Assembly (NCBI RefSeq): GCF_000735345.1
Contig: NZ_JMPJ01000059.1
Span: 1 to 61,645 of the forward strand
DNA length: 61,645 bases
Direction of reading: 5' to 3'
Source of the DNA: Ewingella americana ATCC 33852
Lineage (GTDB): Bacteria > Pseudomonadota > Gammaproteobacteria > Enterobacterales > Enterobacteriaceae
Below, in pieces: positions 29,405 to 42,686 of the stretch. A model generated the notes under the pieces. It was not told where the DNA came from and made no database searches. It saw only the letters and a list, made by a program, of their open reading frames with translations. The position numbers and the translations under genes are program-made. How positions within the stretch are numbered: position 1 is the stretch's first letter; every line of letters starts with the position of its first letter.

Positions 29405-29959
29405 TTAAAAACGGTAGCCAATACCTACGTTAAACCCATTAATCTTAGCATCTACGATTTTGCTGCCTTCATAACCCACATCAATTGCGATATTTTCTGT
29501 TGGATTAACTTGGACACCGACACCATATGCGAAAGCAGTTTCGCCATTGTTGGAATTTTCTGTGTAAGTATAATCACTGTGGTGGTAATTCTGGCTTAAG
29601 TCACTTTTGTTTTTAGAAACACCACCCAACGCATAAAACGATACATATTCATTAATGCGATAAGCCGGTCCAACAAGCAGAGAGTAGTATTTTACTTTTA
29701 TATGATCATCATAGTTAGTATATTCATTATATTCACTATCAAATAAATTACCGCTCGTTGACATATAAGTAAATGAACCGAGAATACTTACCCGCGAGTC
29801 CCATTCATAGCGATATTTAGCATTCACACCGCGAATATTCTTGAAGTCTTGCACCTTACTTTGTGCATAGCCCAGACTGATGGTTTGTGAATCGGCCTTT
29901 GCAACGTTTGATACGCCGACTAATGCCAAGATTGCCAGAGATAAAATGCCATACTTCAT
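29405..29959 (-). CDS. Ail/OmpX-family outer-membrane beta-barrel
   Basis: The protein has 184 residues. The signal peptide (about 1-22, ending VAKA) is followed by alternating amphipathic strands with the family pattern ISLGYAQSKVQ, an NAKYRYEW strand, and the terminal strand GFNVGIGYRF ending in Phe. This is the eight-stranded barrel seen in OmpX, Ail, PagC and Lom. Some members mediate adhesion and serum resistance; that cannot be told here. AAGGA stands 5 bases before ATG 29959. The gene is AT-rich, consistent with an acquired island. Confidence 0.87.
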   Translation of the reverse strand: MKYGILSLAILALVGVSNVAKADSQTISLGYAQSKVQDFKNIRGVNAKYRYEWDSRVSILGSFTYMSTSGNLFDSEYNEYTNYDDHIKVKYYSLLVGPAYRINEYVSFYALGGVSKNKSDLSQNYHHSDYTYTENSNNGETAFAYGVGVQVNPTENIAIDVGYEGSKIVDAKINGFNVGIGYRF

Positions 29960-30302
29960 GTGTTATCCTTAACTAAAATTATAAGAAAGTAATGAGCCAT
30001 ACCCGATATGGATTAGCACCATAGATTGGTAACTTGTAGAAAGTATAAATAAAATTGTATAAGTGGATATACAATCGGTGTAAATAGTACCAAATGGGTT
30101 TTTTAATTAAAATACCGATTCAACTAATTAAGGCTACTTATAAGAAATAATTTAGTTATGGATAGAATTATCCTAGCCGCAAACGAACAGCTGATTATCC
30201 ATTTTATGTATGGGTGTCATCAATTTGTGCGGTTAGCTGAATAATATGGGTATCCGCTAAGCTTGGCTTGTGGATGTTACGCAGCGGTTGCTGCCTGAAT
30301 AG
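29960..30302. other. Intergenic region upstream of the Ail-like gene
   Basis: These 343 bp hold no intact gene. The AT-rich part to about 30130 should carry the ail-type promoter. From about 30170 the sequence becomes GC-balanced and leads, without a start codon, into a SymE-type coding remnant at 30303. Confidence 0.5.
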
Positions 30303-30470
30303 CTCGCTGTACTTTCCCTCCGGTACCAAAATGAGGGCAGACCGAACCCCAGCCCAGAGCTGACGATAACAGGTAAGTGGCTGGAACAGCTGGGGTTTAG
30401 TACCGGCCAGCCGGTGAGTATTACGACTGAAAACGGGTGTTTGGTTATTAGGGCTGAGATTAGCGGCTGA
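30303..30470 (+). pseudogene. SymE-type toxin remnant, 5' truncated
   Basis: An open frame of 55 codons, preceded in frame by TAG (30300-30302) and containing no ATG, GTG or TTG near its beginning, encodes a SymE-family core: LRYQNEGRPNPSPEL, then TITGKWLEQLGFSTGQPV and GCLVIRAE before TGA 30470. SymE proteins are AbrB-fold small toxins first known from a type I toxin-antitoxin pair, and the same domain occurs among polymorphic-toxin tips. Missing a start and N-terminus, this copy looks decayed. It lies just beyond the orphan CDI module and points toward it, so it may be debris of an older toxin cassette. Confidence 0.65.
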
Positions 30471-30480
30471 GGTTATAAAG

Positions 30481-30517
30481 AATAATCCCGGCTCGAAGGC
30501 CGGATTATTGTTATTTT
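30481..30517. terminator. Hairpin with T-run between SymE remnant and orphan cdiI
   Basis: The stem AATAATCC-GGC / GCC-GGATTATT has one bulged base and loop TCGAAG, and is followed on the plus strand by GTTATTTTTTT, a good intrinsic terminator for the SymE side. The T-run overlaps the last codons of the convergent immunity gene. On the minus strand the same hairpin is followed only by TTCTTTATAA. Confidence 0.7.
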
Positions 30518-30948
30518 TTTAGGCGATTGTAAAAATCCCGAACACTATCTAGATCCGTATTCCACTCAGAGATTTTCATGCCGTCTTCATCATGGGTAAT
30601 CCGAGGCTCTATAAATTCATTTATCTTATCCGGCGTGAAATCCGGATGTTCATCTAAAAAAAGGATACTGTTTTGTAAGTAAGCATTTTTCTCTTCAAAA
30701 TATATCACCCATACAAAAATAAAATTACTTTGCCCAGGCTCATACATTGAAACAGCTAGGACTGCATGATCTTTTTTAGCAAGGCCGCTCTCAAGTGATT
30801 TAAGCCAACTTTGTTTGTAATCACTTAAACCCCAGTAACTTATTGGGATACTTAGTTTTTCTTTAAAATCATCAATGATAATTTCAGCAGGAAAAACCGG
30901 CTCATCTTCCATTGTCACTGGTGTATCTTCGGGGAATATACCAAACAT
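30511..30948 (-). CDS. cdiI-o1: CdiI-type immunity protein of the orphan CDI module
   Basis: The protein has 145 residues and is acidic and cytoplasmic (no signal), with the pattern FGIFPEDTPVTMEDEPVFPA at the N-terminus and DGMKISEWNTDLDSV near the end. Length and sequence resemble, from memory, CdiI of Enterobacter cloacae ATCC 13047, which binds a CdiA-CT that cleaves 16S rRNA. It follows the orphan toxin tip after 4 bp, and its AAGGA ribosome site overlaps the toxin stop. Retaining it would protect against siblings carrying that toxin. Confidence 0.78.
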   Translation of the reverse strand: MFGIFPEDTPVTMEDEPVFPAEIIIDDFKEKLSIPISYWGLSDYKQSWLKSLESGLAKKDHAVLAVSMYEPGQSNFIFVWVIYFEEKNAYLQNSILFLDEHPDFTPDKINEFIEPRITHDEDGMKISEWNTDLDSVRDFYNRLKK

Positions 30949-30952
30949 ATAA

Positions 30953-31969
30953 TTAATCCTTGATCCGGTTCAGATCACTGTCGTAAGTGCCAATACGCTT
31001 ACCTTTACTATTGAACATCTTCCAACCATTTGCCACATTATGGCTGTCAACATCGGGGCTAATATAATTTTTCCCATTGTAAAATACCGGCTGACCGTGT
31101 GAGTCAAATGGTGCTTTTTGCGGTGGGATTCGTTGTCCAAAACCTAAGTTCTTAGCCGCTTCTTGGGCTTCTTTGCCTTTCAAGGCCAAATAAGCCAAAT
31201 CGTCCGGATTCTGCTCAGCAACCGGCGTAGTGGTATTCCCACCTACATCCGGTGCACCGTCGCTATTACCTGTATTAATCGCGCCCTGCCCGCCACTCTG
31301 ATCCGGCGTAACCAGTGACGTTCCTTTATTCTGGCCTGGGATAGGATTTTCAAGCTTACCACCGGTTGGATCTTTATCTCCCGCAGGGAACGCCGTGATC
31401 AGGCCTTGATTTCCCTTCCATTCCTCATAAGCTGCACGCTCGCTCGGTGACAGATTGTCCATAAGATTCTGATCGCCCGACATCGCTGCGAGCATAACAT
31501 TGGTTTTCTGCGATCCTGAGAGATCTTCCATCGCCGAGGTGGCGACACCAACACCGACCAGAGCGCCGAGTCCAATATCAATGACAGCTTTACGACACGC
31601 AGGTATTTCCGCACAAGCCGCTACACAGGTACGAATGACAGCAAGGTTATTATTTTCCGCCGCCGTTTTACCCGCCTGCGCCCCAGCAACCACATTCGCC
31701 GAACTGTCCCCCGTCAGCCCGCCAGCAAGCCCCGCCGCCATCGTGCCCAACGCGCTGATTGTCTGTCGCTGCTCTTCAGTCAGATCTTCACGCTTAATAT
31801 CAGGATAAAGCTGTTGGGCAATAAATTCACCCATAGCAGCACCGGATGCCCCCGCTAGGGCACTATTACCGTTAATCTGCGAAACCACGGCACCGACCAC
31901 AGCATGCGCCATCAAGTTGGCTTCTTTATTAACGGCTGCCCTGCACGTTAATGTCGGTATCCGTGGCAC
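30953..31969 (-). CDS. cdiA-CT-o1: Orphan cdiA-CT fragment (displaced CDI toxin tip)
   Basis: An open frame of 338 codons begins at a doubtful GTG (31969). It has no signal peptide and no N-terminal secretion domain, so it is a silent or orphan module rather than a full CdiA. Order: the pretoxin segment MAHAVVGAVVSQINGNSALAG...LTEEQRQ, also present in the upstream cdiA; a degenerate VENN motif (AENN); the linker GGKLENPIPGQNKGTSLV, also shared with cdiA; then a toxin tip with RIPPQKAPFDSHGQPVFYNG and a C-terminal GTYDSDLNRIKD. The tip resembles the Ntox21/colicin E3-like 16S rRNase class. Its own immunity gene follows after 4 bp. An internal ATG at 31912 might be used, but no clear ribosome site is seen. 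Confidence 0.75.
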   Translation of the reverse strand: MPRIPTLTCRAAVNKEANLMAHAVVGAVVSQINGNSALAGASGAAMGEFIAQQLYPDIKREDLTEEQRQTISALGTMAAGLAGGLTGDSSANVVAGAQAGKTAAENNNLAVIRTCVAACAEIPACRKAVIDIGLGALVGVGVATSAMEDLSGSQKTNVMLAAMSGDQNLMDNLSPSERAAYEEWKGNQGLITAFPAGDKDPTGGKLENPIPGQNKGTSLVTPDQSGGQGAINTGNSDGAPDVGGNTTTPVAEQNPDDLAYLALKGKEAQEAAKNLGFGQRIPPQKAPFDSHGQPVFYNGKNYISPDVDSHNVANGWKMFNSKGKRIGTYDSDLNRIKD

Positions 31970-32055
31970 GAATGTTGAGGTTGTTCCCCGCCGGCAGGGT
32001 GCTTATTGGTCTGGGTCTGCTCCGACTTGGACGACTGTGCCATAAGAGAGGTTGA
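31935..32055 (-). repeat. cdiA-derived direct repeat copy 2 (upstream of the orphan module)
   Basis: On the minus strand this stretch encodes, in another frame from the orphan, NLNIRATDTDINVQGS followed by stops. It is nearly identical in DNA to 34708-34844 inside cdiA, apart from short internal deletions (about 14-16 bp at 32008). It is a leftover of a former cdiA haemagglutinin-repeat region joined to the orphan pretoxin segment. Confidence 0.85.
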
Positions 32056-32157
32056 GCGAGTTTGACCTCACAAGGCAGCACATATTACCGTACCTCCTCG
32101 TCGGGCAAGATGGTGATTACCCAGCGAGCTAAGGTTGCTTTTGAGACGTAAATACAA

Positions 32158-32185
32158 TATCCCCCACACTATAGTCGGGGGGATA
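32158..32185 (-). terminator. Terminator after cdiI
   Basis: The inverted repeat TATCCCCC/GGGGGATA (8 bp) has a 12-base loop and lies directly at the cdiI stop codon. On the minus strand it is followed by TTGTATTT. It would end the cdiBAI transcript before the orphan module. Confidence 0.6.
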
Positions 32186-32187
32186 CT

Positions 32188-32391
32188 TTAGAAATCCCAA
32201 CAAACATCAAAGTCAACCATCTGATTTTTAAGGAATTCCTCTTTTTCAAACCAATAATCAAAGACTTCTATATTAGTAGGATCACGTAATATCAAATAAA
32301 ACCCACCTGTATCCCCTTGAGTATCATCGATTATCTTGATGCTCCATCCTTGATATTCTCCACTAGCTACAACACCATTTTTTAAGACCAT
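32188..32391 (-). CDS. cdiI: Putative small CdiI immunity protein for CdiA
   Basis: The protein has 67 residues and is acidic (many D and E), with no signal or membrane segment, fitting a cytoplasmic immunity protein; core GEYQGWSIKIIDDTQGDTGGF. It starts 9 bp after cdiA, and its AAGGA ribosome site overlaps the cdiA stop codon, the usual cdiA-cdiI arrangement. I do not recognise a family. Function is inferred from position only. It is AT-rich like the toxin tip before it. At 67 residues it is unusually short for a CdiI. Confidence 0.65.
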   Translation of the reverse strand: MVLKNGVVASGEYQGWSIKIIDDTQGDTGGFYLILRDPTNIEVFDYWFEKEEFLKNQMVDFDVCWDF

Positions 32392-32400
32392 TGATTTTCC

Positions 32401-35400
32401 TTAATCTTTATAAGGAACATGATTATTCGAGACATATTTACCTGTTTCAGGATTTTTTAAACCAAAATGCACGTGCGGTACACCAGGAGCATGGGCTCCG
32501 CCTATAGATCCTGAATCGATCCTAAACTCTTTCGTTCCATCAGCACTGTGATAAATCCCAGAACCTGATTTACCAATTTCTTTATAACCTGAACCGAGGA
32601 ATTTTAAACCTGCAGCCAAAGCCTCATCAGTTGTTAATGTTGTAGAACTGGTGAAGTTTTTCTTCCCTGACATAGTTTCATTAATGATGCTATCTATCTT
32701 GGCATTTGAGTTTTCAGATAGATACACAACATCTTTTTTAGTAAACGGATCAACTCCTGGATTTACTAATACATTCCCATCGGTATCTGATTTTCCATCC
32801 GAATTCCCAGTATGAGTGGCACCTTGCTCACCACGTTGATCCGGTGTCACCAGTGCCGTGTCCTTATTTGGATCCGCTACTGGATTTTCCAACTTGCCAC
32901 CGATTAAATCATCTTTAGCCGCCGGTATGGTTTCGGTTTTACTGCCCGCTCCACCTGTATGCTGCTGGCTCTGCGCCTTAACTATTGCCAACATCAAACA
33001 CGCACTGTTGGCTAAACATGCCGAATCTAACCCTGATTTGACCTGCTTGGTCAAGGCTAGAGCCGCCTGATCATTTGGATTTTGGCTGCCTGCTTCAGCC
33101 ATAGTTGCCGAGTTCAGAATCTGGTTTGCCATAATCTGCTGAACCAAACCAATACTCGTCATATTGTTACTGATTTCGTTCTGACCTGCCTGAGCCCCTG
33201 TTATCGCACCAGACGAATCACTACCAGCTAGGCCGCCTGCTAACCCTGCCGCCAATGTGCTCAGTCCGACTAGAGTCTGCTTTTGTTGCTCTGTCAGTTG
33301 GTCAACTGATGTATCACCGTACAACGCTTTCTTGATAGCTTCTCCAGCCAATGCCGATGTACCCGCACCTGCAGCACCTGCCAAGCCATTGTTGCCCTGC
33401 ATTTCAGCCAGAACCCCCGCCACCACAGCATGTGCCATCACCCTGCTAGTTTCATTTGGGGCCGTCTGTTTAATCACTTCAGCCAAATAAGGCGCCGCGC
33501 CACCTGCCAGGGCGGCTTTAAGATCCCCACCAGCAAGCCCCTGAATCGCTGCCGTGGCCGCCTGCATCCCCTGTTGGATAGCACTTCCTGTACCCCATTC
33601 AGCTTGCGCAGTCCTATAGGAAGAAGTATTGACCAATTGTGCATGATACTCATCCCAAGCCTCTTGCTTCGCGCCTTTCTCTGGTTCTGTAATACCTTTT
33701 TCTGCCAGCTCGGCTTTACCAGCGTTTGTAGCCCGAATATCACCCTGAGTCCTTGCAATATCACTAACCTGACTCCCAATCTCCCCAATCTTCTGCGCTT
33801 CCCGCAGGCGGCGCTGCTCTTTCTCTTTGTCGAAGATTGGCGAGAGGGTCTGGTTGGCGTGCTCGACGTCGCGGCTCAGGTTGGCGACATTTTGCCTCTG
33901 TTTGCTTTCGTCGCGGATGACAATGCTGCCATCGCTGACTGCCGATTGGGTGGTCGACCTGTCACTGCCCTTACCATTGACTCCGACCAGCAGGCTGCTT
34001 GCCATGTTGCCGACAAACTGGCCGCCGATATTGCCACCAGTGCTCATCCCCACGCTCTGGTGCTCGACCTCATACCCCGCGCGGTTTTCAATGTTGCCGA
34101 AGCCTAGAGTGCCAGTATCAAGTCTGTTATTGCTGGCTTCTGCTGTGGAGCCCAGAACCCCGCCATTGAGCTGGGTATGCTCGCCGACGGTAATATCGAA
34201 ACCGCCCTTGCCCGCGAAGATGCCGGTTTGCTCTTTCACCGAGTCGTAGGTGCTATGCATTTTGTCGCGGCTGAGGTTGATTGACGCGCTGGCTGAACCC
34301 AACCCGCCGCTTACACCGCCGCTCACGTTCTGCTGTTTGGAGTCGTAGTTATCGCTGTCCTGCTCGCTGGAAAGCGTCAGGTTGCGGCCAGCATTCATCG
34401 TGACTTTGTCGCCGGTAAGCTGTGCTCCCGTCAGCGTGGTGTCGCGGCCGCTGACGATGTTCAGATTGTTACCGGCATTGAGGGTGGTCTCGGTGTGGGT
34501 CACGCCGTTGCCGCTCTCCGAACCTTTGCCCTTATTGGCACTGGCATTCACCGTGAAGCCACTGTTATTTCCGCCGAAGTTTAAGCCGACGCCCACCGAG
34601 CCGCCGTGACTCTCATTCTTGCCGTCCAGCACCGAGGTGTTGGTGGCCGAAATCAGGTTCACGTCGCGGTTAGCCATCAGGCCAATATCTTTGCCCGCCT
34701 GCAGCTGGCTGCCCTGCACGTTAATGTCGGTATCCGTGGCACGAATGTTGAGGTTGCTCCCCGCCGTCAGGGTGCTGTCTTGGCTCTGACTATTGGTCTG
34801 GGTCTGCTCCGACTTGGACGACTGGCTGCCGTATGAGAGGTTGATGCCAAACAGGTTCTGCTGATCTTCGCCCTGCGCTTCGCCGAGCTGCGAGGCTTGA
34901 TAAGCCTGCACGCCTCCGAGGGCTGACTTGATGCCATCCAGCGCGGCAAGGCGCCCGCTGCTGGCGGTGCTCGCTTCGTTGGCGCTGGACACCGCGCTAT
35001 TGATGGCACTGCCTACCGCGCCGGACAGCGCCAGTGTCAATCCAATCTGTTTTTGTTCAACGGTGTGGGTCTGCACGCTCTGGTTATCCGCCGCCAGAAT
35101 GTTCACCTCTTTGCCCATCAGGTTGAGGTTTTTACCCGCCAAGACATCTGAGCCTTTTACCCTCAGGCCATCGCCCGCGCTGAGGTTGACGTTGCCCTGC
35201 GTACTGCCAACGGTACTGCCCGCGCTGCTCTGGGTTCTGCCGTCATCGGTAATTTTGGTGCTCTGACTGCCGTAACTCACGCCGACGCCGCCCGTGCCGG
35301 ACAGGCCGGATTTCTTCTCTTCGCGCAGGTGTGTTTCATGACGGGATTGGTCGGCGGCGGTGATATTAAGGTCATTACCCGCCAGCAGGTTCACGTCGCG

Positions 35401-38400
35401 AGTTCCCGCTACGCTGCTGCCATCCACCAGCAAGTTATTCCCTGCCTGCATGGTGACCCTGTCGCCGCTGATGTTGCTACCCAGCGCGCTCTGGTTGCGC
35501 ACTTCGTCGTGAGTCTCCAGCGACATGCTGGAAAGCATACCTTTGCTGCTCTGCTTGCTGTGCTCGGTCAGATGATATGAGTCATTACCGGCGGTCAGGT
35601 TGATGTCGTTTCCCGCCACCGCCGCGATGCTCTCTTTAGCAGTCACCGACGCGGCTCTAGCATTGAGGTCATGCCCCGCGCTAAGGCCAAGGCTACCGCC
35701 AGTGTTAATCTGCGTTCCAACGTCTTGGGTCTGAGTCAGGTGGCGATAGTTATCTTTGTCCCAGTCGCTGTTCTCAGTATGCGTCGTGCTGAGTGTCGAG
35801 AGGTTGAGGTCTTTACCCGCAATGATTTGGGTCTGGCTGTTCGCGCCAGTGTTGCTGACCTGCGCCGCCGTCAGGTTGATATTGTTCAGGGCTTGCAGGC
35901 CAAGCTTGCCGTCTTTGTTCTGCACATAGATACCCGCCGCGCGGTCGAGATGTCGATTCGTGTCGCTGCCCGCGAGGGTACTGCTGACATTAATGTCGCG
36001 CCCGGCAATCGCCACCAGACTGTCGCCACCTTGCAGCGTGCCGCCGAGGTTATTGATGTCGGTACGCGCGTTAATGATTAGCCGATTGCCGCCGATAAAA
36101 CCGCTGTTGGTGAGCGTATTCGCATTAATCTGCGTCACTTCACGACCTACAATGTTGCCGCTATTAGTGATGTCGCGCTGGCTATTGAGCACTACATTGT
36201 TGCCAGAGAGCAGCGCGCCACTGCCCTCAAGATCGCCTTTTTTCACTCGCGCATAGACTTGCGGCACCAGTACGCTTTGCACCGTGCCGTCCGGCAGCGT
36301 GATATCTTGTTTGACCAACCACACTATATCGCTGGTCAGCAAGGCCATCTGCTCCGCAGTCAGCGCCACGCCTAGCGTCAGGTTGTAATGCTCCCCAAAA
36401 GCAATCCCAGCATCCATTAAGGCTTTGTATTGGTCGGTATCATTGTTGTAGCCCGCCAGATAGCGCTGGCCGGTGAGGTCAGCGACCTGTTGGCGAATCA
36501 GCTGCTGCTCGTAAAAGCCGTCACCCAGACGCCTCAACATATGGTCAGGGTTTTGGCGAAGGGCGTTCTGCATATAGTCGCTGCCGAGCCACTGCTTTTG
36601 GTTGGTGAAGCGCGGGTCAGTCTCAATCAAATAGCGACGGGTCGCTTCGCCATGCAGTTGGAAGAGACTGCTGTCAGGCAGCTTTAGGTTGGGACTGGTG
36701 ATGCGCACCACCGAGTCCAGATGGTTCTTTGGCTGAGTCTCAAATATCTGCCCGGCTGGAGGCTGGATGGGCTGAGGCGTAGAGTCATTGTTTACCGCGC
36801 CCGCACTGCCTGCCTGCTGGTTAAGCGTCGAGGTATCTCTCTTAACGATGGTCGTTCCGCTACCCGTGGCCTGAGTATGTTCGGCATAAACCATCGCTTT
36901 TAAATCAATAGATTGAATGATGATTTCCGGGCTGTAGCGATTACTATCCTTGCCTTGTGAGGTCTCGGTTCCACGGCCGTGTCGGCGTTTCTTTTTTTTC
37001 GCATACCAGCGGGTCTGAGTCCCGACATCGGTGATGGTGCGTTGACCCGGCGTGGCTTCATTATGTATTTCGGCGACTACGCCACCTAGCGTGCCGCCCG
37101 CCATGATACGGCTGTCGAGGTTATTGAGCAGGTTGCTGTAAATGGCCAGATCGCCCCCGGCGATAATCTGCCCCGGTTCACTCTCTTTGACCTTGGTCTC
37201 AGTGACGGTGCGCTGGTACTGATATTCATAAAACTCATTGTTGCGGGAGCCATCGGGCATGATCGCGTCATGGACGCCGTATTTATTTTTCCATGAAGTA
37301 TCAACGTCATCCCAGTTATAGCGTTGAGTCGAACCTTTTAACACCGCCTCGTGATGTGGCGAATCCTCGGTTACCACCACTTCCGTTGCAAAGTGATCGT
37401 TGAGGTTGTTTATCTGGCCGATGTTCAACACCATATTGCCAGCCGACTCCAGCGTCGAGCTGTGGTTATTAAACACTGACGCCTGACCGGTCGCCTGCCA
37501 CTGATCGTTTAGCTGTCCACCCACGGCCACATCGCCAGCGCTGAAAATCAGGCCATGATCGCGGTTGCTGATGGCCTGCGCGCCGATATCCAGACGATCG
37601 CGGGCGGCAATGGTTGCCGCAGTACCGTTTTCCGCCAGATTATTGAGAGTACCGGTCTGCAAGGCGATATGGTCGCCATAGATGCGCCCGCTGCCAGTAT
37701 TGGTCAACGTCGCAGACTGAATATGGGTCAGGTTGCCGTCGATAAGCCCACGGTTTGTCACTTCGCCCGAGGTGAGAATATGGTTCTGCGCGGCACTGAT
37801 TTCGCCCGCTGCGCTGTTATTCACGTTGGCGGCATTGAGGTTGAGCGTGCCACCCGCTTTGATCAGCGCACTGTTTTCCAGCCCTTGGCCGATGTTGAAG
37901 TTCAGGTCGCCGTTGGCGACCACCTTGCCCTGATTGTTGAACCCTTGCGCCAGATTCAGCACCATGTTCCCTTGCGACAGCAGGCTGCCGTCGCCGGTCA
38001 ATGATGAGGCCGACAGTTGCAGATTTTTATCGGCGATCAGCGTGCCGCCGGTGTTTGTCAGCGCCAACCCATTGCCAGTCAGCGTTAATGTATCGGCGGA
38101 AGAGAGCAAGCCTTGGGAATTGTTCAGCAAGCCGGTATTGATATCCAGCAGGTCATTGGCGCGTAGCGCGCCCTGCGTGTTGTCCACAGAGCCGCTGTTT
38201 AGGCGAACCGACTGCCCTTCCAGCCCGATGTCCTGAGTTTGGGTATCACGATTGACGATCTGCGCGGCATTCAGGGTGGCTGTAGCGCCAGTTCGAATCA
38301 AACCGGCAGTGTTATCTACCAAGCCGTTGAATGCATTGATCAATGCATTGCCCGCAACCTGAAGCTGCCCGCCCCGGTTATTCAGCCCGGCAATATCAAG

Positions 38401-40956
38401 TTGGGCATTACCGCCGGCAGAAATATTACCCTGCGCGTTCTCCAGCGCCTGCCCCTGAGTGTTGATAATGGCATTACCGCCAGCGCGGACTTGCCCAGTC
38501 TGATTGAGCAGCGCCCCGCTCAATAAGTTCAGGTTGTTACCGGCAATCAGAGCGCCACTTTTGTTATCAACCGCTTGATTCTGTGAGTTAAAATTAAGGT
38601 TTTGATTTGCCTGAACCAGCCCGCGCTGGTTATTGAATTTGCCCGTTGTGAGGTTAAGCGCGCTGTTGCTTGCCAGCGTGCCGTTGAGGTTGTTGAACTC
38701 AGCAGAGCTCAGTCGTAAATCGCCCGTGCTGGCGATAAAGCCTTGCTGGTTGTCGAGTGAGCCGCTGTTGATCGACATCGCCCCACGGCTGACAATCCCG
38801 CGATTATCGCCACTGTCGCGGTTACTCAGGCTCCCACCCTGTAGATCAAGAGCCATACCACCGCCCGACTGCACCAGCCCCCCGTCATTGTTCAGCCCAA
38901 CGCTGGTCAACTGCATGTCGCCAAGGGCCGCAATAGTGCCTTGTTGGTTATTCAGCGCGCCAGTCTTTAAGGTGAAGGCTTTCCCTGCGCCGAGCTGCCC
39001 CTGCTGGTTGTTTAGACTGGCGGTTTTGAAGTCGAGATTGCCATTGCCCGCGATTTTCCCGGCTTGATTATCCACGCCGTCAAACACGTTGAGGGTCATC
39101 GCGCCGCTGCCGGTCTGCAAGATTTTGCCTTGGCGGTTAGAGAGGCGATTGGCGGTCAAAGTGAGTTGTTCCGCTGAAGTGGTGGCGCCATCCAGCAGGA
39201 GATCGCCACCAGTAATGGTGAGTTTTCCGTTGGAAAGCAGTTGGCCCTTTTCACCTTGCAGGCTGGCGCTTTCAAGGGTCAGGTTGCCGTCGGCAGCATG
39301 GAGGATTTTGCCGCCCTGATTGTTGATTTGAGCGGCTTTGATATTGAGATCTTCGCCGTTGCTGGCAATGCTGCCGCCACGGTTATTGAGCGAGCCTTTA
39401 TGGGAGAATTGCAGGGAATCGCTGCCCAGCTGCGCGATTGCACCTTGCTGGTTAGATAGGGAGTTCGCGCTGATATTCAGCTTGTCGCCGAGCAGCTTTC
39501 CGCCGTCGTTATTGAGCATTTTGCCACTGCGCGCGGTTAGCTGCTGCTGCGCGGCAACCTGCGCACCGCCTGTATGGAGACCTTCCTGCCCGGCGTCCAG
39601 AGTGACGTTATTGCCGCTGGTCGAGCTTTGGCGAATATCTACACCCTGACCGCGAGCCGTCAGGTCGCCAGAAGCCAAATTCTGCCCCTGAGCCCGTAAT
39701 TGCCCCGAGGCATCGAGAGTGAGATTGCTACTCCCTACCAGCTTGCCATCCTGATTAACCCCCGCCGCCAGCACGCTTCCCCGCTCGCTATTTAACGTCG
39801 CGCTTTTAGTTTGCAGATGGTTATTGGCGGTAACAGCGCCGCTGTTGTGCAGGTCACCCGCGGCAGTCAAGTTGGCATCCGCGCCTGAACGCACCGCACC
39901 ACTGTTTTCAATCGCGCCATTAGATGCAATTGAAACGCCCTCTTGGCCGCTCATCTGCCCGCTGTTTTCGATTCGGCCATCGGCGGTGACCACCAGCGTG
40001 CCAGCCTGCGCGCCGATATTGCCTGCGTTATGCACGCCGACGCCGTTTTCAGTGCCCATCAGGCGAATTTTATTAGCGTACATGCCGCCGAGCTGTGCGA
40101 CATCTACCGCCATCATCGGGCGATTCGAACCGCCTGTGGCTTTTTTATCGATTTGCCGATGGCTGGCATCCACCTGATTGCGCCCTGCCGTCACCTTGAG
40201 ATCTTTCGCCACCAAGCTAGCGTTGATTTTCACCGAGCGGGCGATGATATCAGTGTGATCCTGACGGCTGTTGTCCATCCCCGCGCCCTGAATCACAATT
40301 TCGCCCCGTTCGACATCAAAACCGGTGAGCTGGCCATTGTTGAGCTGAGCTTGCCCGGTGGTCATGGTGGCACGGTTAGCGTTGATAAAGCCGCAGCCGT
40401 CACAGGTGATCCCCGCCGGGTTGGCGATCACCACCTGCGCCTGACGGCCCGCCACTTCGACATAACCGTTGAGCTGGCTTGGGTCGCGAGAGTTCACCTC
40501 ATTGAGGATCACCGTCGCTTCGCCGCGCGCCAGCCACGGGTTGCCCAGTATCATTCCGCCCTGCTGCGTCGCTGTGTTCTGGCGGGAGTTGTTGAGGATC
40601 ACCCCATTTTGGCCCACGTCAAACTGGCTGTAAGTGTTGCGGGAAACGCCCCCTTGGCTGGGCGTTTGAATATTGACCTGCGGGGTGCCGTTGGCGGTGC
40701 TGACGATATGCGGCTGCTGATTATTCGGCGCCTGACCGTCGGCTACAATACCCGCAAAGGCACTGTTGACCACCAGCACCGAGCTAAAGAGCGCCAGCAT
40801 AGCGCATGACAGGCTGCTCAAACGGCACTGGCATACAGCCGTTTTGCTGCGGCGCACGCGGCGTCCGCCTTCGCGGCCCGCGGAAGCAATCTCCGCTACG
40901 ACCATCAACAGGCCACGGGCTTTATTAAAAATGATGCGGTACAGATGTTTATTCAT
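32401..40956 (-). CDS. cdiA: CdiA, contact-dependent growth inhibition effector (TpsA)
   Basis: The protein has 2851 residues. An extended signal peptide (ESPR type, MNKHLYRIIFNKARG..., cleavage after SAFA near residue 68) is followed by a TPS secretion domain with the NPAGITCDGCGFINANRA core, and two long blocks of filamentous-haemagglutinin repeats (LxxxAGRNLTL-type). Next comes a pretoxin segment (VMAHAVVAGVLAEMQGN), a degenerate VENN (EISNN) at about 33163-33180, the linker GGKLENPVADPNKDT, and a tip of about 110 residues ending HVHFGLKNPETGKYVSNNHV. CdiB exports it, and contact delivers the tip into neighbours. The tip is AT-rich compared with the body, a mark of exchange, and I could not assign its class; the HVHFG motif suggests histidine catalysis. 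Confidence 0.9.
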   Translation of the reverse strand: MNKHLYRIIFNKARGLLMVVAEIASAGREGGRRVRRSKTAVCQCRLSSLSCAMLALFSSVLVVNSAFAGIVADGQAPNNQQPHIVSTANGTPQVNIQTPSQGGVSRNTYSQFDVGQNGVILNNSRQNTATQQGGMILGNPWLARGEATVILNEVNSRDPSQLNGYVEVAGRQAQVVIANPAGITCDGCGFINANRATMTTGQAQLNNGQLTGFDVERGEIVIQGAGMDNSRQDHTDIIARSVKINASLVAKDLKVTAGRNQVDASHRQIDKKATGGSNRPMMAVDVAQLGGMYANKIRLMGTENGVGVHNAGNIGAQAGTLVVTADGRIENSGQMSGQEGVSIASNGAIENSGAVRSGADANLTAAGDLHNSGAVTANNHLQTKSATLNSERGSVLAAGVNQDGKLVGSSNLTLDASGQLRAQGQNLASGDLTARGQGVDIRQSSTSGNNVTLDAGQEGLHTGGAQVAAQQQLTARSGKMLNNDGGKLLGDKLNISANSLSNQQGAIAQLGSDSLQFSHKGSLNNRGGSIASNGEDLNIKAAQINNQGGKILHAADGNLTLESASLQGEKGQLLSNGKLTITGGDLLLDGATTSAEQLTLTANRLSNRQGKILQTGSGAMTLNVFDGVDNQAGKIAGNGNLDFKTASLNNQQGQLGAGKAFTLKTGALNNQQGTIAALGDMQLTSVGLNNDGGLVQSGGGMALDLQGGSLSNRDSGDNRGIVSRGAMSINSGSLDNQQGFIASTGDLRLSSAEFNNLNGTLASNSALNLTTGKFNNQRGLVQANQNLNFNSQNQAVDNKSGALIAGNNLNLLSGALLNQTGQVRAGGNAIINTQGQALENAQGNISAGGNAQLDIAGLNNRGGQLQVAGNALINAFNGLVDNTAGLIRTGATATLNAAQIVNRDTQTQDIGLEGQSVRLNSGSVDNTQGALRANDLLDINTGLLNNSQGLLSSADTLTLTGNGLALTNTGGTLIADKNLQLSASSLTGDGSLLSQGNMVLNLAQGFNNQGKVVANGDLNFNIGQGLENSALIKAGGTLNLNAANVNNSAAGEISAAQNHILTSGEVTNRGLIDGNLTHIQSATLTNTGSGRIYGDHIALQTGTLNNLAENGTAATIAARDRLDIGAQAISNRDHGLIFSAGDVAVGGQLNDQWQATGQASVFNNHSSTLESAGNMVLNIGQINNLNDHFATEVVVTEDSPHHEAVLKGSTQRYNWDDVDTSWKNKYGVHDAIMPDGSRNNEFYEYQYQRTVTETKVKESEPGQIIAGGDLAIYSNLLNNLDSRIMAGGTLGGVVAEIHNEATPGQRTITDVGTQTRWYAKKKKRRHGRGTETSQGKDSNRYSPEIIIQSIDLKAMVYAEHTQATGSGTTIVKRDTSTLNQQAGSAGAVNNDSTPQPIQPPAGQIFETQPKNHLDSVVRITSPNLKLPDSSLFQLHGEATRRYLIETDPRFTNQKQWLGSDYMQNALRQNPDHMLRRLGDGFYEQQLIRQQVADLTGQRYLAGYNNDTDQYKALMDAGIAFGEHYNLTLGVALTAEQMALLTSDIVWLVKQDITLPDGTVQSVLVPQVYARVKKGDLEGSGALLSGNNVVLNSQRDITNSGNIVGREVTQINANTLTNSGFIGGNRLIINARTDINNLGGTLQGGDSLVAIAGRDINVSSTLAGSDTNRHLDRAAGIYVQNKDGKLGLQALNNINLTAAQVSNTGANSQTQIIAGKDLNLSTLSTTHTENSDWDKDNYRHLTQTQDVGTQINTGGSLGLSAGHDLNARAASVTAKESIAAVAGNDINLTAGNDSYHLTEHSKQSSKGMLSSMSLETHDEVRNQSALGSNISGDRVTMQAGNNLLVDGSSVAGTRDVNLLAGNDLNITAADQSRHETHLREEKKSGLSGTGGVGVSYGSQSTKITDDGRTQSSAGSTVGSTQGNVNLSAGDGLRVKGSDVLAGKNLNLMGKEVNILAADNQSVQTHTVEQKQIGLTLALSGAVGSAINSAVSSANEASTASSGRLAALDGIKSALGGVQAYQASQLGEAQGEDQQNLFGINLSYGSQSSKSEQTQTNSQSQDSTLTAGSNLNIRATDTDINVQGSQLQAGKDIGLMANRDVNLISATNTSVLDGKNESHGGSVGVGLNFGGNNSGFTVNASANKGKGSESGNGVTHTETTLNAGNNLNIVSGRDTTLTGAQLTGDKVTMNAGRNLTLSSEQDSDNYDSKQQNVSGGVSGGLGSASASINLSRDKMHSTYDSVKEQTGIFAGKGGFDITVGEHTQLNGGVLGSTAEASNNRLDTGTLGFGNIENRAGYEVEHQSVGMSTGGNIGGQFVGNMASSLLVGVNGKGSDRSTTQSAVSDGSIVIRDESKQRQNVANLSRDVEHANQTLSPIFDKEKEQRRLREAQKIGEIGSQVSDIARTQGDIRATNAGKAELAEKGITEPEKGAKQEAWDEYHAQLVNTSSYRTAQAEWGTGSAIQQGMQAATAAIQGLAGGDLKAALAGGAAPYLAEVIKQTAPNETSRVMAHAVVAGVLAEMQGNNGLAGAAGAGTSALAGEAIKKALYGDTSVDQLTEQQKQTLVGLSTLAAGLAGGLAGSDSSGAITGAQAGQNEISNNMTSIGLVQQIMANQILNSATMAEAGSQNPNDQAALALTKQVKSGLDSACLANSACLMLAIVKAQSQQHTGGAGSKTETIPAAKDDLIGGKLENPVADPNKDTALVTPDQRGEQGATHTGNSDGKSDTDGNVLVNPGVDPFTKKDVVYLSENSNAKIDSIINETMSGKKNFTSSTTLTTDEALAAGLKFLGSGYKEIGKSGSGIYHSADGTKEFRIDSGSIGGAHAPGVPHVHFGLKNPETGKYVSNNHVPYKD
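34708..34844 (-). repeat. cdiA-internal direct repeat copy 1
   Basis: This part of the cdiA haemagglutinin-repeat region encodes SNLNIRATDTDINVQGSQ and the upstream SYGSQSSKSEQTQTN. It is the in-frame parent of the out-of-frame copy at 31935-32055. Both copies have the same orientation and lie about 2.8 kb apart, flanking the present toxin tip and its immunity gene. Confidence 0.85.
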
Positions 40957-40973: not shown

Positions 40974-42686
40974 CTAATACGACCAGTTGAGGTTGAAGCC
41001 CAGCGAGACGGGGTCCGTCGAGAAACCATCAGGTTTTGAAAAAGGGACTGAGGCGAACAGGTCATAACCGACCTTCAAGGCTCTGCCGCGAACCCCGACC
41101 GCACCGCCCGCCAAGTGCTTAGCCACCAGATATTGCGTGCCGTTGCCGCCCACTTCGCCGTAGTCCGCGCCGAGATAAAGCTCTTGGGAAGGCAGCGGGG
41201 TCGCCCATGCAAGGTCATTACGCACAAACCAGCCGCGATCGGCATTCAGGCTCAGCTCGCCGTCGAAGCCACGCACCGTCCAGCGGTTGCCGATAGCAAA
41301 CTGATCCTGAGGTGTTAAGTGGGTATTGCTGTATTGCCGCTGGTATCGCGTGTTGTAGCGAAATTTCTGATTGGCGATGGTGAAAGGCAGATCAAGTTGG
41401 GCGGAAAGCTGGACGATTTTGCTTAGCGCCGTCGCGTAGCCGCCATACTCTTCCGGTGCGCGAGTCGCGCCAAACCAACGGGTGCCGCGCTGGTAGCTGA
41501 CCCCCATGTCGAGCGTGGCTTGCGAAATATAGTGACGATGCTGTAACCCCAAGCGCCACGCCGCGGTTTGCCTGCGTTGCACCTCGATTTCAGTATCATT
41601 GACATAATTTCTGGACTCGCGCGCCAGCACGTCGTAGGTCAGCGTGGTCTTCTGGCTAGCATTGCGGTGCAATAGGCGACTGACCTGAAAATCGAGGTTT
41701 TTACTTTTACCGCTATACCGATAATCACCATTCAGCCCGGCGCTGGTCTGGTTATATTGATAACTGTTGGCAGTTAGGCCAAACATCCAATAACCGACAG
41801 GCACTGAATAGTGCCCGGTAACGTTGCCAGTGCTCTTGCCACTTTTGTGAGGCAGGCTGCTGGTGCCGGAAATGTAGAACAGATCGTTAAGGGCAAAGGG
41901 ATTATCCAGCGACAGGGTCGCGTTTCCCTGATAACGCCCCGTGCTGCGCGTGCCTGAGTCATTAAGGCCCGTCGCGACGCGCCACATCTTTTCCTGTTTC
42001 CAGTGCAGCGCAATATCACTTTCTCCCGGCTGCTCGCCGGGAAGGATTTCCATGTCAGCCTGCACCGTCGGCAGGCGCTGAAGATTCTCTAAGCCCTGTT
42101 CAATATCGCGTAAATCTAAAAGCTGGCCAGCATGGGCTGGAAATGGGCTATACAGGCTGAGATAGCGATTGCTGTCCGGCGTCAATTCCACCTTGCGGAT
42201 TTTGCCGGGGATAACCACCAGTTGCAGCACCCCACTCTTCAGATCCTGCGCCGGAGACAACACGCGCGTGGTGATATACCCGTGATCTATCAGCCGGTTC
42301 TGCAAGGTGCTCATCAGCAAGTTGATACCTTCGCTACCCAAACATTTGCCGACAGCTTGATTACTAATACGTTGCAGCGGCAGCCAATGCGGTAAGGCTT
42401 CCGTGCCACTCAGCCGCACTTGCGAGAGAGTAAAACAGGGGGTTTCCTGCGGGAAATTGATGCGCCCAAAAGCACCGACAGGAGGTGCAAGACGGACATC
42501 CGGTGCCTCGGGGGTCAGGCTCTGTTGCAGAGCGCGTTGCTGCTCCTGCTGATGAATAAATTGTTGATCCCCTGCTTCACGAAAAGGAGAGGGGCCGATA
42601 AGAGGTTCAGCATAGCTGCTGGCAATAAACAGACTAAGGAAAACAGTCAGCGACTGGCAGGCAATATTAATAGCGGGGCTGCGCAC
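40974..42686 (-). CDS. cdiB: CdiB, outer-membrane TpsB transporter
   Basis: The protein has 570 residues starting at GTG 42686, with AAGGA about 9 bases upstream. A signal peptide (about 1-27, ending SSYA) is followed by an N-terminal plug-type helix segment rich in Gln, two POTRA domains (a block around [21 protein letters not shown]) and a 16-stranded barrel. The conserved [15 protein letters not shown] motif folds into the pore, and the final strand ends NLNWSY. It exports CdiA across the outer membrane in the FhaC/ShlB manner. cdiA starts 17 bp after its stop. Confidence 0.93.

Follow-up and report, generated by a model that had tools for sequence, protein, structure and literature searches.

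A worn scrap of cdiA beside an orphan toxin/immunity module at a contact-dependent growth inhibition locus of Ewingella americana

Orphan toxin/immunity modules with variable cdiA remnants, the displacement of cdiA ends by incoming ones and the loading of orphans by recombination are all described, in the sections available, by published work on contact-dependent growth inhibition (CDI) (PMC3150448, PMC4927057, PMC6336857). For rhs genes, the available part of Jackson 2009 (PMC2935791) presents a model in which old tips are shunted downstream together with core fragments by homologous recombination, with circular intermediates proposed. The CDI array of Proteus mirabilis BL95 is described in the accessible text as containing displaced orphans, one of which has a second copy of 830 bp of cdiA, and an opposite-strand symE (PMC11278526), and the CdiA-CT/CdiI pair of Enterobacter cloacae ATCC 13047 (PDB 4NTQ) is a 16S rRNA nuclease (16S rRNase) with active-site residues D203, D205, H207 and K214 (PMC9086364). 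Here we analyze a CDI locus on contig NZ_JMPJ01000059.1 of Ewingella americana ATCC 33852, the whole of which (61,645 nt, one of the 92 contigs of the assembly) is referred to as the window. Based on open reading frames (ORFs) and Pfam matches, its minus strand carries cdiB, cdiA, a small gene at the cdiI position, a scrap of cdiA, an orphan toxin gene and an orphan cdiI. We conclude that an older cdiA 3' end was probably displaced by the present one, which left a scarred orphan downstream.

The evidence begins with the scrap. A first-pass annotation of the window had reported that about 120 bp at 31935-32055 are nearly identical to 34708-34844 inside cdiA, and base-level alignment confirms this: 31934-32055 and 34707-34844 match in the same orientation at 118 of 122 aligned bases (self-BLAST, E 1.7e-42). 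The self-BLAST figure is 85.5% over 138 columns, which include 16 gap columns, and both gaps (2 bp and 14 bp) lie in the orphan copy; the repeat comprises a part of 70 bp at 97% (D1) and a part of 34 bp at 100% (D2). When 117 bp of the scrap were searched against all 92 contigs of the assembly, two places were found, the scrap itself and cdiA. In the reading frame of cdiA, translation of the scrap finishes with DINVQGSR and then meets two stops, and the orphan uses another frame, as the annotation had stated. The annotation had also proposed that part of the haemagglutinin region was deleted, and about 1.25 kb of cdiA (haemagglutinin/mid region) is indeed missing at the join 31933|31934, a length measured on the window's own cdiA and the same on a copy in a relative (L055, genome G005). 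At this join the scrap abuts, with no spare base, sequence that in other cdiA genes lies ahead of the pretoxin, and DNA likeness to the pretoxin regions of several relatives starts at 31933. The locus thus differs from the orphans described in the available parts of Poole 2011, Ruhe 2016 and Roussin 2019 in that its cdiA piece is only 122 bp long, is joined across a deletion before the pretoxin, runs into stops and would not load the orphan. The features of the locus are as follows.

40974..42686, minus strand: cdiB, two-partner secretion (TPS) transporter (Pfam ShlB 3.4e-107, POTRA_2, POTRA_3)
32401..40956, minus strand: cdiA, 2851 amino acids (ORF; Pfam TPS, ESPR, haemagglutinin repeats and PT-VENN, searched in two pieces)
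34707..34844, minus strand: cdiA segment repeated beside the orphan, about amino acids 2037-2083 (alignment and assembly search)
32188..33740, minus strand: cdiI and the present 3' block of cdiA, with low identity to the sister species G001 (250-bp bins)
32188..32391, minus strand: candidate main cdiI, 67 amino acids, 61% amino acid identity to the gene at the same place in G001 (assigned by position)
32056..32165, minus strand: 110-bp stretch before the scrap (spacer), source not traced in family genomes
31934..32055, minus strand: 122-bp cdiA scrap with 2-bp and 14-bp gaps, stops after it (alignment)
31185..31933, minus strand: orphan pretoxin (PT-VENN at 31643-31789) and linker, native-looking (Pfam and BLAST comparison)
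30953..31184, minus strand: Ntox21 tip of the orphan toxin, 16S rRNase type, probably imported (Pfam Ntox21, PDB 4NTQ chain A)
30511..30948, minus strand: orphan cdiI, 145 amino acids, intact (Pfam CdiI_N, PDB 4NTQ chain B)
30487..30504, both strands: terminator-like hairpin 3' of the orphan cdiI (consensus scan only)
30327..30455, plus strand: antisense symE piece (PF08845)

The scrap was said to adjoin an orphan toxin module with its own immunity gene, and the domain searches agree. The module contains a pretoxin-bearing cdiA-CT fragment that lies 3' of cdiBAI in the same orientation and lacks a TPS/secretion part, and it has its own adjoining immunity gene as well as an upstream cdiA remnant, the 122-bp scrap. 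The toxin ORF as listed spans 30953-31969 with a GTG start inside the scrap, and homology suggests that the ATG at 31912 (pretoxin MAHAVV) is the likelier start. Pfam identified PT-VENN (1.3e-18) and Ntox21 (3.1e-11) in the toxin and CdiI_N (1.7e-28) in the immunity protein; NCBIfam returned no match for either protein. Against the E. cloacae structure, the toxin matched chain A (1.1e-56) and the immunity protein chain B (1.2e-57), and all four active-site residues aligned to identical residues in the orphan toxin. These matches indicate that the orphan is an Ntox21/CdiI pair of the ECL type, a predicted 16S rRNase whose catalytic residues and immunity gene appear intact. Unlike its E. cloacae counterpart, the window tip is not on a full-length CdiA, and the linker, which is the N-terminal part of the CT, differs. 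The toxin lacks any secretion or filament part and could not be delivered in its present form.

Comparison with relatives suggests a mosaic origin for the orphan itself; each percent identity reported in these comparisons refers to the best local BLAST segment. The orphan pretoxin and linker showed 82.7% identity to the congener G002 (692 bp) and 84.6% to the congener G005:C76 (638 bp), and the neighboring pbpC showed 81.6% and 80.2% in the same two comparisons. Because the pretoxin and linker diverge about as much as pbpC, they look native to this locus. Both relatives carry an orphan of the same pretoxin/linker class with other tips on the contig that bears pbpC, at about 6 and 16 kb from this gene (about 3 kb in the window), and the 5' join of the G002 orphan differs, with symE running almost directly into the pretoxin. 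For the present 3' end (amino acids 2420-2730), there was no match to G002 and a match of 125 bp only to G005:C76. By contrast with the pretoxin and linker, the orphan tip and cdiI share 95.0% identity across 640 bp with an orphan of Rahnella (G176), and no counterpart turned up in the five other genomes of the genus; we consider the tip and its cdiI probably imported, by transfer between genera. The orphan would therefore combine a native-looking pretoxin and linker with an imported tip and cdiI.

The Rahnella locus (L079, G176:C1 about 153200-154860) contains the same tip in truncated form and out of frame, with cdiI open, so that immunity has outlasted the toxin there. A comparison of the window cdiI with that of Rahnella gave 10 nonsynonymous and 13 synonymous changes (nonsynonymous rate, dN, 0.029; synonymous rate, dS, 0.177). 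These figures and the broken Rahnella toxin are consistent with selection on the immunity gene.

We also compared the locus with that of the sister species G001 (G001:C1:3060001-3080000, on a 4.66-Mb contig), which is orthologous, with three neighbor genes at 92-98% amino acid identity and the cdiA body at 87% DNA identity. In 250-bp bins, identity was 82-95% in the upstream bins printed and 64-77% from about amino acid 2410, and it returned at 30448, the end of the antisense symE piece. The present 3' end is 67.4% identical to that of G001, while pbpC is 94.3% and the cdiA body 87.0-90.5% identical. This low identity beside a high value for pbpC indicates that, after the two lineages split, at least one of them acquired a new cdiA 3' end.

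The scar, the missing piece, the mosaic and the intact immunity gene, each legible in the sequence, would fit the following course of events. The locus would initially have carried a native VENN-type pretoxin and linker, to which an Ntox21 tip and cdiI of a kind common to Rahnella became joined. A new 3' block with the present tip would then have entered via homologous recombination in cdiA, leaving the old end downstream behind a partial cdiA copy. Loss of about 1.25 kb of this copy and the appearance of small gaps would have produced the 122-bp scar. We infer the order of these steps and the route of entry, as well as the expression and present use of the module; toxin replacement of this general kind is already known. 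The proposed displacement resembles the rhs model in that old tips move downstream with core fragments, and it differs in that the latter concerns rhs rather than cdi and describes, in the part available, core fragments of variable length, whereas many orphan pairs surveyed here share one start (PMC2935791). For this probable instance of CDI tip replacement, comparison with close relatives sets apart a native-looking end, an incoming end, an imported tip and a scar.

Several observations weigh against displacement. G001 has the same present toxin type at this locus (tip 87%, cdiI 61% amino acid identity) and has no orphan, and the orphan tip and cdiI, as noted, were not found in the five other genomes of the genus. 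We found no genome that joins the cdiA of this species to an Ntox21 tip. The scrap is too short to date the event: at the eight sites that differ among the scrap, its own cdiA and the G001 cdiA, to which it is identical at 116 of 122 bases, it agrees with its own cdiA at four, with G001 at two and with neither at two. Furthermore, 18 of 48 orphans in the family survey described below lack a long cdiA head, 3 of them lacking any local cdiA homology, among the matches listed. Because the present toxin type also occurs in G001, the end now in place may not have directly succeeded the orphan. The first-pass annotation had proposed that an older 3' end was pushed downstream when the present tip came in; displacement is supported in outline by the native-looking pretoxin and linker and by the replaced present end, and immediate succession is not.

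Other histories could account for parts of this pattern. A donor array may have supplied the present tip, cdiI, scrap and orphan in a single recombination event with edges in cdiA (about amino acid 2410) and in the symE piece (30448), such that the orphan never ended this cdiA. Such an event would explain why the divergence from G001 is confined to a single stretch bounded by precisely these edges, and it agrees with both the 95.0% identity of the orphan tip and cdiI to Rahnella and a 110-bp spacer that matches no other genome searched. However, the divergence of the orphan pretoxin and linker from G002 and G005 is similar to that of pbpC, as a resident sequence would show, and the scrap is as close to the resident cdiA (118/122) as to anything searched, which makes this scenario unlikely. 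We regard as improbable, too, that the orphan was displaced before the genus split and has remained downstream since, with gene conversion by the resident cdiA keeping the scrap alike and with G001 losing the module later, e.g., between symE pieces. An orphan of this age is suggested by the occurrence of the same pretoxin/linker class downstream on the pbpC contig in G002 and G005 and by symE pieces flanking modules in the genus, but the orphans of the three species differ in tips and 5' joins, a pattern also compatible with separate displacements.

If the cdiA 3' end had been duplicated locally in tandem and one copy had then received another tip, this would be in keeping with the frequent sharing of a cdiA start by orphans of the same array (10 of 15 pairs within 5 bp, one of them an artefact). 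We consider such a history highly improbable because the pretoxin and linker also differ between the copies (42% amino acid identity), so that plain duplication would be insufficient. Finally, CdiA does contain related repeats, including one weak internal pair (35 nt at 80%), which raises the question of whether the scrap is a common haemagglutinin repeat of low specificity. The E value of 1.7e-42 and the presence of the sequence at just two places in the genome rule out such a generic repeat, to which we assign practically no probability. Displacement of an older cdiA end by the present one remains our preferred explanation.

Would the repeat work as a switch? The first-pass annotation had noted that recombination between the two copies would delete the present tip and immunity gene. 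This deletion is predicted from the alignment, yet CdiA would be truncated and the orphan not loaded, because stops follow the scrap directly. Apart from the scrap, no exact match between the orphan module and the window's own cdiA exceeds 12 bp. For a spare tip, the cdiA sequence common to both copies would continue in frame into the orphan toxin, and here stops end the scrap, which suggests that the orphan could not readily serve as a spare tip. Direct repeats shared by cdiA and an orphan thus do not always amount to a usable switch. With a toxin that would be neither deliverable nor loadable, an immunity role becomes the likelier reason for survival of the module, and its likeliest present use would be immunity to neighbors that carry an Ntox21 toxin.

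We also surveyed such modules in the family. Searching with the orphan cdiI matched 20 of 392 genomes, its own included; of the 19 others, 13 loci were fetched in addition to that of Rahnella, and 5 whose matches were weak or broken were set aside. At one of these 13 loci (G348), a full-length cdiA terminates in the Ntox21 tip, an arrangement that the first-pass annotation had suggested looking for in related strains; at the other 12 loci the tip lies outside any long cdiA frame. A pretoxin search matched 118 of 295 genomes, and 40 stretches were chosen by hand among the matches listed. In this sample, cdiA homology starts at least 300 bp before the pretoxin in 30 of 48 orphans from arrays with a long cdiA (the window's included), and it contains an internal deletion of at least 100 bp in 7 of the 48. 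Long, near-identical cdiA copies are often retained on orphans of relatives, such as 1,697 bp at 95.6% (G003:C5) and 1,183 bp at 95.8% (G176). The window's case is a worn example of this common arrangement.

The 3' side of these modules is often marked by symE. In six genomes of the genus, all 21 matches to PF08845 (SymE; 19 over the cut-off) lie within 2.7 kb of PT-VENN and on the opposite strand, and the one genome of the genus without PT-VENN is also without symE. Besides the window piece at 30327-30455, such pieces occur in the arrays of G001, G002, G003 and G005. Among the 122 symE matches over the cut-off in 99 family genomes, 49 are no more than 6 kb from PT-VENN, every one on the opposite strand and none on the same strand, with 40 on the 3' side of PT-VENN and 9 on the 5' side; 50 of the 101 PT-VENN matches in these genomes have a symE nearby. 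The other 73 symE matches are divided between genomes with PT-VENN (56) and without it (17). Counted after each module among the matches listed, symE is antisense in 47 of 123 cases and sense in none. For the BL95 array, symE is mentioned a single time, as a gene that apparently does not belong to the CDI system (PMC11278526), whereas antisense symE is frequent in our counts; we do not put the association forward as unpublished, given the parts of the literature available. If the strict antisense association holds more widely, symE would provide a concrete right-hand arm for module exchange.

The left-hand edges of orphans are also often shared. Among the matches listed, 11 arrays have at least two orphans with a cdiA head, and in 10 of the 15 orphan pairs from these arrays the two starts are at most 5 bp apart on cdiA. 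These starts depend on the choice of BLAST pieces, and two counts disagree for G187 and G038b; of the ten same-start pairs, that of G031 is an artefact of where the stretch was cut and that of G038b is without similar upstream sequence. Starts at the same base with alike upstream sequence were seen in L153 (G213), L162 (G187), L126 (G022) and L124 (G159). The shared starts look as if the join was made once and then inherited. One tentative reading, which we hold as possible, is that CDI modules are cassettes with inherited edges, formed on the left by a cdiA piece from an array-fixed start and on the right by an antisense symE piece, and that tips are displaced by recombination at both arms, hence one start per array; the window orphan would have kept its symE edge, with its cdiA edge worn to the scrap.

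A further motif near orphan starts, GCTCTTTAACA, is what we take to be the rRNA-type boxA. Among the matches listed, it occurs exactly before 6 of 118 modules (ORFs of fewer than 1500 codons, 29 of them open at the 5' end of the stretch), in five arrays, and with one mismatch before 12 of the 118 and before 2 of 23 long cdiA genes. The carriers are L068/L069 (G003:C5), L070 (G003:C14), L078/L079 (G176), L062 and L124 (G159), and in three of them the motif lies 15-25 bp before the orphan frame. We found no literature that ties boxA to cdiA, polymorphic toxin or immunity genes. The motif is absent in the window, and boxA was dropped as a general orphan signal.

The 110-bp spacer was considered as a mobile-element remnant, and no match to it was found in 148 other family genomes. 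Compared with the orphan head of G003:C14, it gave a score that 2 of 1000 mononucleotide shuffles reached, a weak hint of a worn orphan head; in three other comparisons the score was reached by 50, 171 and 852 of 1000 shuffles, and four further ones showed no likeness. At the second cdi locus of G001 (L066, 17188-17256, corresponding to G001:C1:417188-417256), a scrap of the same cdiA segment precedes an orphan. This scrap is 87% identical over 69 bp to the window cdiA, and the long cdiA of L066 itself has no match to the segment.

The candidate main cdiI had no match in Pfam or NCBIfam, and the last 149 amino acids of the present CdiA had no convincing solved relative in PDB (best E 0.2). Consensus scanning of the region yielded five terminator-like sites against 2.0 expected, and the promoter scan, with five sites against 3.5 expected, was uninformative. 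Rfam gave no match at the gathering threshold over 30000-32500. Adjoining the array is a gene for an Ail/Lom-type outer membrane protein (29405-29959, minus strand, Pfam 2.9e-32), which has no match within the G002 and G005 stretches compared and is present in G001.

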